Positions 47,161 to 51,031 of a DNA stretch of 64,000 nucleotides are shown here, piece by piece. This stretch comes from Schlesneria paludicola DSM 18645 (GTDB lineage: Bacteria; Planctomycetota; Planctomycetia; Planctomycetales; Planctomycetaceae), in the NCBI GenBank assembly GCA_945876035.1, contig CAMCMU010000016.1:1-64000 (forward strand), written 5' to 3'. The notes below the pieces were generated by a model, which made no database searches, was not told where the DNA came from, and worked only from the letters and a program-made list of their open reading frames with translations. Each line of letters starts with the position of its first letter. Position 1 is the first letter of the stretch. Both the position numbers and the translations under genes were made by a program.

Positions 47161-47640
47161 GATGCTCTCTTTCGCCTCGTATGAGATGAGTACTGCTTCT
47201 GGAAATGGGGTCTCGTCGGAGGCCACGGTTCTTCTGAGGCGACCTCGCTATTCGGCACACAGGCCGTGGAGTTATCTCCCCGAGTTGGAATGCCGGCCGT
47301 CGATGCGATCGACGAATGCCAACGAGAGAGGCTATTCGACGACGGCCGTGACCGCAAATCATCAACGTGGGGGGACGATGATTTACAGGCACGGCAGCTG
47401 ACGCGAGTCTCACCGTTCCGAAAAACGACATCCGAGGCACGTCGTTTTTTGAGCATCGGCAGCAAGACTTGTCAGGGAATCCGATCCGGTCGAACTTCCG
47501 ACGTCGGCTCGCCCCTCAGCCCGTTCAAAGCCCGGCGGGGTGTTGCTGAAAAGGCAGAGACAGAGCCGCGCGTGAATGCGATTTGAAAATGTGAACGTTG
47601 ACTCTTCAACGCCGCTCAGCTTTGCCATCGCAGGGGGATA
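47161..47640. other. Intergenic, upstream of the retron-like locus
   Basis: No gene recognised on either strand. It contains one strong hairpin (47421-47450) and leads into the structured segment starting near 47641. Confidence 0.45.
47421..47450. terminator. Bidirectional terminator-like hairpin
   Basis: A perfect 9-bp stem (47421-47429 with 47441-47449, 11-nt loop) has A-runs on one side and T-runs on the other, so it could act on either strand. It could insulate the retron-like locus from upstream transcription. Confidence 0.5.
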
Positions 47641-47657
47641 GCGATAAGATACATCGC

Positions 47658-47836
47658 GCCGACTCGTCGGTCGCACAAGCTCGATTCGCGCGTCCTTGAT
47701 GCGGACGTGTCGAATGCTGCGGGGATACCCCGCGGTCGCTGAAATGTTCTTGATTCGTGGTGTGAATTGCTGACGTGGTGGACCACACCACATCAACAAT
47801 TCGCTACAGGATCGGTTGTGCGGCTCACGGGTCGGC
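47658..47836 (+). ncRNA. Candidate retron msr-msd RNA
   Basis: As plus-strand RNA this 179-nt segment folds into one closed domain. Closing stem: 47658-47678 with 47816-47836, 21 positions, of which 17 are Watson-Crick, 3 are G-U and 1 is C-C. Inside are three hairpins: 47684-47715 (5 + 5 bp around a small internal loop), 47717-47735 (8 bp, 3-nt loop) and 47762-47804 (19 positions with two C-A mismatches, 5-nt loop). In a retron the closing stem is a1/a2, the G just after a1 (47679) is the branch G, the short hairpins are msr and the long one is the template msd. The two C-A mismatches become G-T pairs in the DNA copy. The RT gene starts 114 nt downstream on the same strand. A further small hairpin (47641-47657) lies just outside. 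All pairing was done by eye, with no energies. Confidence 0.6.
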
Positions 47837-47950
47837 CACGTTTTGTGTGTTGAGTTGTTGTTCGGATTTCATTGATTTCGCATCTTGTAATGTGTGCGGC
47901 GATTCATTCTACCAAGAACTGTTTCCCAGCAAGTCCCGGGATGTGAGTAC

Positions 47951-49321
47951 ATGGCGTTCTTCGCAGGGTTGCTCCGCTGGCTTGGCTGGAACCTAGCCCC
48001 TGCCAATTCGCAAGAGGATCGCTCGGCGGCGCAGTCTCGTGCCGGTCAATCCGATCCTGTGGGTGGTCAACCGGACAGAGAAAAGAAAACAACATCCGTC
48101 ACTTCGACGGATGGCCGAGTCTGTGCACACACTCGTTCACAGCGTCGTCCACAACTCTACGCCACCCGATCCGCCAAGCCTCGAAAAGACGCTGTCCGAT
48201 TGAGATCGGACGTTTTAGAGGTGTCTGGTGCCGCACCCTATCGATACGCCCGTTTTGGGTCGGGCACAGGTCGACATCTCGACCTGAGTCAGGACGGAAA
48301 GGAAGGCCGTTTGCGGCAACGCGGGCTCCCGATATTTCACACTCCCGAGGAATTAGCTGAGTGGTTGGGGCTTCCGCTGAAAAAAGTTGCTTGGTTGGTC
48401 CATCGATTCACCGACGGGCGACCCGCCAGCCTGGATCAGGCACACTATCATTTCAGTTGGCGAAAGAAGAATGCGGGCGGGTGGCGACTCATTGAATCAC
48501 CCAAGCAGACATTAAAATATGCTCAAAATAAGATTCTTCGCGAAATTCTTGATCACGTCCCAGCCCATGCGGCGGCTCATGGTTTTGTGTGCGGAAAGTC
48601 CATTCTGACGAATGCTCGGCCTCATGTGGGACAGGCGACGCTGTTAAAGTTGGACCTCGCTAATTTTTATGCGACGGTCGGATTTTCTCGCGTGACGGCG
48701 CTGTTTCGTTCGCTCGGTTATTCCCGTGAAGCCGGGATTTGGCTGGCGCTCCTGACGACATCTGCCATCCCGGGAAACATGGCCTTTCCCGGTCAGGATC
48801 CGTATGCCTTCGAGCCCTATTTGCGTCGGCATTTGCCCCAAGGGGCATCGACATCCCCCGTCTTAGCGAATTTGTCGGCCTACCGACTCGACATCCGATT
48901 GGCGGGATTGTCGAAGTCGTTCGGTGCCAGTTACACGCGTTATGCCGACGATTTAGCAATTTCGGGGCCCGCGGAATTTGCACACGGCCTTAGACTTTTC
49001 ATTCCACTGGTACAGCAAATTATTCGCCAAGAACGTTTTCGTTCGAATCACTCTAAACGCCGAGTCCTACGGGCAAATCAAAGGCAGTCGATTGCCGGGG
49101 TGGTAGTGAATGAACGGATTAATATTGCTCGCGAACACTTCGATCGACTCAAAGCCATATTGACCAACTGTGTTCGACAGGGACCGTCCACGCAGAACCG
49201 CGAGAACGTTGCCGATCTCAAGTCACATCTTCGAGGTCGCGTTGCACACGTGCAACAATTGAACCCCACACGGGGTGAAAATCTGCTGAGACTCTTCAAC
49301 CGCATTGATTGGAGCCATTGA
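47951..49321 (+). CDS. Retron-type reverse transcriptase
   Basis: A 456-residue RNA-directed DNA polymerase. An N-terminal extension of about 120 residues has no recognised domain. The RT core has: GWRLIESPKQTLKYAQ (about 177-192), GFVCGKSILTNARPH (211-225) with the retron region X motif NAxxH at 221-225, motif A LDLANFY with catalytic Asp235, LPQGASTSPVLAN (295-307) and the YADD box at 331-334 (Asp333, Asp334). Retron region Y normally has VTG; here it reads IAG at 381-383, followed by VVVN. No maturase or endonuclease domain is present, which argues against a group II intron. The pattern is closest to myxobacterial-type retron RTs, which also carry N-terminal extensions. The start at 47951 was chosen over an in-frame ATG at 47894, because the latter lies closer to the structured RNA; the support is weak. 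Confidence 0.85.
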   Translation: MAFFAGLLRWLGWNLAPANSQEDRSAAQSRAGQSDPVGGQPDREKKTTSVTSTDGRVCAHTRSQRRPQLYATRSAKPRKDAVRLRSDVLEVSGAAPYRYARFGSGTGRHLDLSQDGKEGRLRQRGLPIFHTPEELAEWLGLPLKKVAWLVHRFTDGRPASLDQAHYHFSWRKKNAGGWRLIESPKQTLKYAQNKILREILDHVPAHAAAHGFVCGKSILTNARPHVGQATLLKLDLANFYATVGFSRVTALFRSLGYSREAGIWLALLTTSAIPGNMAFPGQDPYAFEPYLRRHLPQGASTSPVLANLSAYRLDIRLAGLSKSFGASYTRYADDLAISGPAEFAHGLRLFIPLVQQIIRQERFRSNHSKRRVLRANQRQSIAGVVVNERINIAREHFDRLKAILTNCVRQGPSTQNRENVADLKSHLRGRVAHVQQLNPTRGENLLRLFNRIDWSH

Positions 49322-49330
49322 AATTTTGAG

Positions 49331-50026
49331 ATGATCAACTTCATGACATTTTTCCTACCGGGGCGATTGCTACAGCCGTTGCTGAAGCCGGTGATCAGAC
49401 TATTTCTGGGTGTTGTTGCCATTCCTTTTTTTCGTCTTTTCGTCCGCCGAGTCGTCAAGGTTCAAGAGATAAACCAGGAACTCGAAAAAGACCTCGAGCA
49501 GTGGTTTCGTGGTGCGTTGTTGTTGTTAATCGCCACGAAAAATATGGAAGAATCCCTGTTCAGTTGGGTGACGCAGGAAACACTCGACGGGCCGCTTTTC
49601 TTGGCCGGGCGATTGCTCTTGGCCATCAGTGTGGTCGAGGGCATGCCCGACCAGTCTTTGTTTGCTTTGATTCATCCTGGACCGCAGCCGCCGAAATTCA
49701 AACAAAAACAAATTGTTTGGAGTTTGATCTGCTACATCCCACAACTGTTCAAAGGAATCATTTGCCAACACCTAAACCGATCATCACCGGTCTTCGCTAT
49801 TCTGGCGGTCTTGGTTGCTGGAAAGATGGGTTGGATCTGCTATGGAATCGCGTTGGCTCAGTATCTGTTGATCGGCCTTGTCACTTCCCGAGACAAGGCC
49901 TTGAATGTCCTTCAAAGATTTGATGCGGCGGTTGATGGACAACGTCAACGACTGGAATCTGAACTGAAACGTCAAACGGAATCTCGAAAACTCAGAGAGG
50001 CAGGCACGCACGAAGGCAAGGTGTAG
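49331..50026 (+). CDS. Membrane protein of unknown function, candidate retron effector
   Basis: A 231-residue protein that I do not recognise. It has a hydrophobic N-terminus (19-38), shorter apolar stretches (57-69, 88-102) and a hydrophobic C-terminal half (128-146 and 154-185, probably two or three membrane helices). It ends in a charged Arg/Glu/Gln-rich tail (about 190-225), possibly coiled coil. It starts 9 nt after the RT stop on the same strand, so it is very likely cotranscribed with it. Membrane effectors are known for some retrons (for example the two-helix protein of Ec48), and this gene is in the right place, but that function is inference only. The ATG at 49331 is preceded by a weak ribosome binding site. 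Confidence 0.7.
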   Translation: MINFMTFFLPGRLLQPLLKPVIRLFLGVVAIPFFRLFVRRVVKVQEINQELEKDLEQWFRGALLLLIATKNMEESLFSWVTQETLDGPLFLAGRLLLAISVVEGMPDQSLFALIHPGPQPPKFKQKQIVWSLICYIPQLFKGIICQHLNRSSPVFAILAVLVAGKMGWICYGIALAQYLLIGLVTSRDKALNVLQRFDAAVDGQRQRLESELKRQTESRKLREAGTHEGKV

Positions 50027-50226: not shown

Positions 50227-51031
50227 ATGCGGGAATTGCCACGTTTCGCTGCATTCCTTTCGGAACCGATCGGTTCCGATGTGGCGATCCTTGGCATTCC
50301 GGATGGCGGGTCAGTGTCATACCGCAGCGGGACTCGGTTTGGACTCCGAGCAATTGGGGCACAATCGTTGTTTCTGTGGGGCTACAACAACGCGCAAAAC
50401 GTCGCGTCCTTGACCCAGCTGAAGATCGTTGATTTGGGGGACGTCGCTGTGGTGCCTCCGGATATTCGGGCGACTCACCGCGCCATTGAACTTGCCGCTA
50501 CTGCGTGCCCATGCCAAGCAATACGGTCTGCCGGCCGTGATTCACTTCGATGCTCATCCGGACACTTGGGACAGCGAGTATTCTGGTCAGCCCGACAGTC
50601 AGGGCACTTCCTTATCAACGCGTCAGAGAGGAAGGGTTGATTGATACTTAGGTCTCTGTGCAACTCGGGATTCGCGGTCCGACGGCTGGTCCACAGGATT
50701 ACACGGAGGCTCTGAAACTCGGGGCACGAATGATGACGCGAGAGGAGTTGCATCGCCGCGACTTTCAGGACGTCCTGCAGGAGATCCATGCAATCGTTGG
50801 AGGCCGAAGGACCTACATCACGCTCGATATTGATGTCATCGATCCGGCCTTTGCGCCAAGTACGGGAACATCGGAAATCGACGGGCTTTCTAAATATGAT
50901 AGTGCCAATGGATTCGCGGTCTGCGTGGGCTGAACTGGATTGGATCTGATCTGGTCAAGGTCTCTCCGCCATTTGATCACTCGGACATCACCGCGATCCT
51001 CGCCGCCAATCGGCCATTTGAATTTCTTTGA
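50227..51031 (+). pseudogene. Decayed agmatinase/arginase-family gene
   Basis: Reading three frames gives a ureohydrolase. Frame 1 starts MRELPRFAAFLSEPIGSDVA and includes ILGIPDGGSVSYRSGTRFG and [15 protein letters not shown] second frame has [20 protein letters not shown] and [16 protein letters not shown] (the manganese motif DAHxD). After another shift and an in-frame TAG follow VQLGIRGPTAGPQDYTEA, TYITLDIDVIDPAFAPSTGT (the second manganese motif) and, after a last shift, DLVKVSPPFDHSDITAI, ending with a stop at 51029-51031. The stretch with the GGDHS metal motif, expected between frames 1 and 2, is missing, so a deletion of about 30 codons joined the frameshifts. The intact enzyme would split agmatine or a related guanidino compound. 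Confidence 0.82.

Follow-up and report, generated by a model that had tools for sequence, protein, structure and literature searches.

Retrons are now viewed as patchily distributed, mobile anti-phage modules that carry toxins, and to our knowledge the first retrons found, those of myxobacteria, are still without a known role. The window analyzed here, a 64,000-nt stretch of Schlesneria paludicola DSM 18645 (assembly GCA_945876035.1, contig CAMCMU010000016.1, positions 1 to 64,000), raises the question whether a structured RNA located directly upstream of a reverse transcriptase (RT) gene forms such a system in a planctomycete, as a first-pass annotation made from the letters alone had proposed. 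This proposal was supported by the profile matches, motifs and fold of the RT, by a low-energy closing stem in the RNA and by covariation of the stems. We put the probability at roughly 0.8 that the locus is a functional retron of the RT_other/RT_outgroup class, solitary and mainly vertically inherited, that forms an RNA-DNA particle with its target or effector elsewhere. In the window, the features from the ncRNA promoter to the membrane-protein gene next to the RT lie on the forward strand.

Positions 47640-47950 were folded using RNAfold, resulting in a low-energy structure of -133.3 kcal/mol that contained the annotated closing stem and hairpins. Shuffled sequences had a mean of -105.0 kcal/mol (z = -5.03) and none of 100 shuffles was as low. 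The closing stem is formed by the a1 arm (47658-47678) and the a2 arm (47816-47836), whose pairing was indicated by both the fold and covariation. Upon recount, its 21 positions comprised 17 Watson-Crick pairs, three G-U pairs (47664/47830, 47669/47825 and 47671/47823) and one C-C mismatch (47668/47826), exactly as annotated. The three hairpins described inside this 179-nt structure were also present in the sequence and predicted by RNAfold, and the distance between the end of the structure and the ATG of the RT at 47951 was indeed 114 nt.

Directly following the a1 arm, in the context ACAAG-C, lies the putative priming (branch) G at 47679, which is invariant in 59 of 59 aligned ncRNAs. In known retrons, the priming base is the G of NAGC at the a1 end (PMC6868368). 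The base after the putative priming G is C in the window (AAGC) and C, A or T among relatives. Msr hairpin 1 (47684-47715), delineated by fold and alignment, differs in length among genera and is nearly missing in some loci (L081, L082). Msr hairpin 2 (47717-47735), CTGCGGGG-ATA-CCCCGCGG, is the best-conserved part of the ncRNA and is likely the RT-binding element. The long msd hairpin (47762-47804), supported by the fold, a structure check in relatives and covariation, is the probable msDNA template. An Rfam search of the window and eight distant loci matched no retron or other relevant family.

Related ncRNA loci were used to assess compensatory changes in the stem arms. A total of 59 loci were aligned using MAFFT, structure not being used in aligning (alignment A1). 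The tested structure was the RNAalifold consensus of A1 itself, which somewhat favours it over versions with partners slid; paired cells amounted to 94.1% in A1 versus about 40-43% in the slid versions. This gap and the counts of compensatory changes are too large to be explained by that bias alone. Covariation was strong, with compensatory changes in 24 of 32 pairs and a score of 0.401 versus 0.168 in shuffles, none of 500 shuffles reaching the observed value. Both sides had changed in 13 of the 17 pairs tested in the closing stem and in all seven tested in the msd hairpin. In msr hairpin 2, 99.8% of the cells were paired and four of eight pairs carried compensatory changes. Across 68 loci, 17 out of 19 a1/a2 pairs (median) are retained and the msd-type hairpin measures 14-30 bp. 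Since pairing of the msd stem is kept while its sequence varies, its structure appears to be selected. Conservation and covariation in the 59 related loci exclude chance as the source of the structure at this locus.

The RT gene (47951-49321) encodes a retron-type protein of 456 aa, recognized by profiles, motifs and fold. Translation of the open reading frame confirmed both annotated motifs, NARPH at residues 221-225 (48611-48625) and YADD at residues 331-334 (48941-48952). Among 81 orthologues, YADD was found in all and NA..H in 80. Retron RTs are marked by NAxxH in region X and by the VTG triplet with which region Y begins, from which two of 16 verified retron RTs depart (PMC6868368). The triplet reads IAG in the window RT, a departure that counts against the retron reading, and VTG in most orthologues, the others having VAG, IAG, ICG or ITG. 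The best PADLOC profiles were RT_other (402 bits), RT_outgroup (380 bits) and, as third-best class, RT_XIII (337 bits); in Pfam, RVT_1 was matched. Sequence and fold matches in the PDB were led by retron RTs (Ec86, Ec67, Ec78, Ec83, Eco7 and Eco8), and the top 18 matches of the fold search were all retron RTs. The predicted model had a mean pLDDT of 77.6, with a confident RT core and values below 50 for most of residues 12-64.

DRT RTs are likewise reported to pair with structured upstream ncRNAs (PMC12039810, PMC12483538), and the planctomycete RT might use its RNA as the ncRNA-bearing systems DRT2 and DRT9 do, without 2'-5' retron priming. We consider this very unlikely, as the locus combines several retron hallmarks (PMC6868368): the a1/a2 stem, the invariant G at the a1 end, an msd hairpin separate from those of the msr, NAxxH and a VTG-like triplet. 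Moreover, retron RTs rank first, the NCBIfam Drt2 profile scored 33 bits versus a cut-off of 390 and the DRT2 fold came at rank 22.

The RT starts with a hydrophobic helix (residues 1-13, 47951-47989), identified by translation and comparison with orthologues, for which model confidence is low (pLDDT about 50 at residues 1-10). A short hydrophobic N-terminal helix of the MGLFDFLRRLLFG type was present in 73 of 81 orthologues by strict count; most of the others were clearly alike or truncated, so that the helix occurs in essentially all complete orthologues. It leads into a disordered, R-, P- and S-rich linker of about 63 residues. Apparent true transmembrane helices replace the short helix in one genus (g5; L083, L108), and in RTs of the wider clade its place is taken by an N-terminal region that is longer and apparently globular. 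The helix probably tethers the RT particle to the membrane.

Upstream of the a1 arm, a putative ncRNA promoter was read in the sequence at 47622-47650, consisting of TTGCCA (47622-47627), a 17-nt spacer and TAAGAT (47645-47650). The promoter type of the relatives is TTGACC-N16-TACGAT, with a -10 element that in most cases precedes ncRNA position 1 by 15-16 nt. Promoter scores of at least 9 out of 12 were obtained for 49 of 69 loci versus about 1% of mononucleotide shuffles. At the level of predicted elements, this comparison shows that the ncRNA has its own conserved promoter.

In three species of one genus (g16; G051, G052 and G053), the RT adjoins the gene for a membrane protein discussed below but is not preceded by an ncRNA. 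The only ncRNA detected in these genomes is located on a different contig, where the same pair of unrelated genes flanks it in all three species (L222, 5626-5787; L223, 5759-5922; L224, 5672-5836), with the promoter-like element and the structure intact. An intact ncRNA unlinked from its RT argues for a free-standing RNA able to act in trans. In another genome (G061), two tandem ncRNAs with different msd hairpins (L106, 3935-4079 and 4254-4398) precede a single RT. These arrangements bear on a reading of the RNA as a cis-acting leader of the RT gene, such as a riboswitch, an attenuator or a protein-binding leader, rather than a template. Its position in the 5' region of the RT in nearly all genomes would suit such a leader, but in the g16 species the RNA stands elsewhere with its own promoter and the RT remains at the ancestral place without it. 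The tandem copies also speak against it, and a leader would not be expected to end in a long hairpin whose sequence varies freely. We rejected this explanation on the unlinked g16 copies and regard what chance it retains as negligible.

Distribution of the retron was examined in 170 genomes of the host family, a search of the whole order returning the same 170. An RT relative was present in 153 of these, and about 106, as counted from the results table, carried an orthologue, for which identity is about 48% or higher. A covariance model (R1) was built from 59 upstream regions, and matches with E < 1e-9 were taken as strong. Such ncRNA matches were obtained in 106 genomes, about 104 of which also have an orthologous RT. 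In the two genomes with an RT only (G065, G042) the RT matches were partial, and the two with an RNA only (G035, G037) have a completeness of 74-76%. Homologous RNAs and orthologous RTs occur together in about 41 genera of the family; the window genome carries a single copy of the RT. In a sample of 298 genomes from the class, only the family gave strong RNA matches, those in other families being weak (E 1e-4 to 1e-9). No relative above 45% identity was found in the plasmids and phages searched, nor any in viral contigs by an exact-pattern search, which is a weak test.

In the RT tree, every genus with at least two rows was monophyletic, and the 41 groups required 40 changes, which is the minimum. 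RT distances followed those of the membrane protein at loci where both adjoin (r = 0.68; Mantel test, 0 of 2000). When mapped on the membrane-protein tree, RT presence required four changes among 63 rows versus 14 in shuffles, which indicates that the RT is absent clade-wise. The ancestral gene order consists of a divergent M50-type protease, ncRNA-RT, the membrane protein, MutL and an AroD-type gene, and the number of genera that retain it ranges over 6-19 for the individual genes; the names of the protease, MutL and AroD-type neighbours come from reading the translations. One horizontal transfer is likely: G099 carries the system, its congeners G100 and G101 are without it, and the G099 RT groups with genus g25. 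Taken together, these results show a near-core RT-ncRNA pair that occupies an ancestral locus and was passed on mainly by vertical descent in most genera of the family. This is unusual, since such pairs are normally patchy, mobile and toxin-bearing.

The gene that follows the RT in the window (49331-50026) starts 9 nt past the RT stop and encodes a conserved, all-helical, probable membrane protein of 231 aa, identified as an open reading frame and by an orthologue survey. It had no match in Pfam or PADLOC and no PDB fold match at E <= 0.001; the family is marked by the motif MPDQ.LF..IHPGP. In a tripartite defence retron, as in those with membrane effectors, the RT-msDNA particle would keep this protein inactive until phage sets it free. 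The short spacing, its position after the RT in 19 genera (34 loci), the parallel evolution of the two proteins and the putative membrane helix of the RT would all agree with such an arrangement. The membrane protein is, however, present in 147 of the 170 family genomes, including RT-less genera and many genomes that have neither RT nor ncRNA, and many of the genomes with the RT encode it at another place. Core status would be unexpected for a toxin without its antitoxin, and the MutL and AroD genes also stand in conserved order, which indicates ancestral synteny. A tripartite system with this effector is accordingly unlikely. As a dedicated effector the membrane protein was rejected on its presence in RT-less genomes; it is an ancestral neighbour and a core gene of the family. 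A functional link between the two proteins may still exist, since they adjoin in 19 genera.

Neither a dedicated effector gene nor a fused effector domain was found at the RT, the neighbours being only the genes of the ancestral synteny. Around 86 loci of the wider clade, comprising distant RTs and family paralogues, no neighbour family occurred in more than four loci, as judged mostly from 3-kb flanks, in which distant partners would be missed. This lack of a recurrent neighbour makes the class look solitary. Beyond the first-pass annotation, the pair is near-core and vertically inherited, has no dedicated adjoining effector and contains an RNA that can be unlinked from its RT. In the window, an arginase/agmatinase-like gene further downstream (50227-50933) is seemingly split into two frames (50227-50640 and 50658-50933), representing either a frameshifted gene or a sequencing error.

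For the solitary retron, the following mechanism is proposed. The msr-msd RNA would be transcribed from its own promoter, with a start site presumably close to the a1 stem base. The RT would then recognize the msr, probably via the conserved GGGG-NUA-CCCC hairpin, and would use the 2'-OH of G47679 for priming, as the analogy with known retrons suggests. Copying of the msd hairpin would, on the same analogy, yield an msDNA of roughly 55-80 nt, and the hydrophobic N-terminal helix of the RT would probably hold the particle at the membrane. The most likely role would be that of a constitutive RNA-DNA particle acting in phage sensing or cell physiology, with its target or effector elsewhere in the genome. 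More tentatively, the retron may have been domesticated in the ancestor of most Planctomycetaceae genera, serving a host function rather than toxin-based defence, with a membrane-tethered RT, no toxin partner, a structure-based msDNA and an unlinked ncRNA capable of acting in trans. A defence system that is inherited vertically and has its effector in trans would look the same.

A Myxococcus RT (L218), presumably of the Mx162 type, had 42% identity, and its best profiles were likewise RT_other and RT_outgroup. Myxobacterial retron RTs are extended at the N terminus and their retrons are vertically inherited in myxobacteria (PMC6868368). Like Retron-Mxa1 (Mx162) and Retron-Sau1 (Sa163), the planctomycete system combines an extended RT N terminus with an upstream msr-msd and vertical inheritance (PMC6868368). 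Unlike in both, the extension is a short hydrophobic helix with a disordered linker instead of a globular domain of about 100 aa, and the ncRNA is unlinked from the RT in one genus; the expected msDNA is also much shorter than the 162 nt of Mx162. With the tripartite retrons Ec86 (Eco1), Ec67 (Eco2), Ec78, Ec83 and Eco8, the locus shares the RT fold, NAxxH, YADD, a1/a2 and msr and msd hairpins. These retrons are patchily distributed and carry an effector gene or fused domain, whereas the planctomycete locus has none and is near-core. Retron type XIII gave the third-best profile, below RT_other and RT_outgroup, and the planctomycete RT is without conserved accessory neighbours. RT_other and RT_outgroup, its two best profiles, are PADLOC labels for RTs without an assigned system and provide no effector, mechanism or planctomycete ncRNA. 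We place the locus in this unassigned class, as a solitary retron inherited mainly by vertical descent. No published description of this RT-ncRNA pair was found among the papers searched.

The family is a second bacterial group in which a retron is near-core and has no effector, and offers comparative material on the role of solitary retrons. The planctomycete loci indicate in addition that the RNA is separable from its RT, and provide many new pairs of RT and msr-msd for tools that make single-stranded DNA in cells. Outside the orthologous group, R1 matches (E < 0.01) preceded many of 66 distant RTs as well as several paralogues in the family, and msr hairpin 2 likewise recurs ahead of distant RTs. 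Those distant RTs that have a related ncRNA scored 435-535 bits to the RT_other/RT_outgroup profiles. Upstream of the myxobacterial RTs tested, R1 gave a weak, partial or no match; the Myxococcus and Pyxidicoccus RTs showed the same PADLOC ranking, with RT_other/RT_outgroup first. Family paralogues of the RT (L111-L130) have about 38-46% identity; several have a diverged ncRNA upstream, and none has an obvious effector gene. Related, apparently solitary RTs were also observed in Acidobacteria, Proteobacteria, Verrucomicrobia, Actinobacteria and Myxococcota (L157-L221); in many of these, a homologous ncRNA precedes the RT core by about 300-500 nt.
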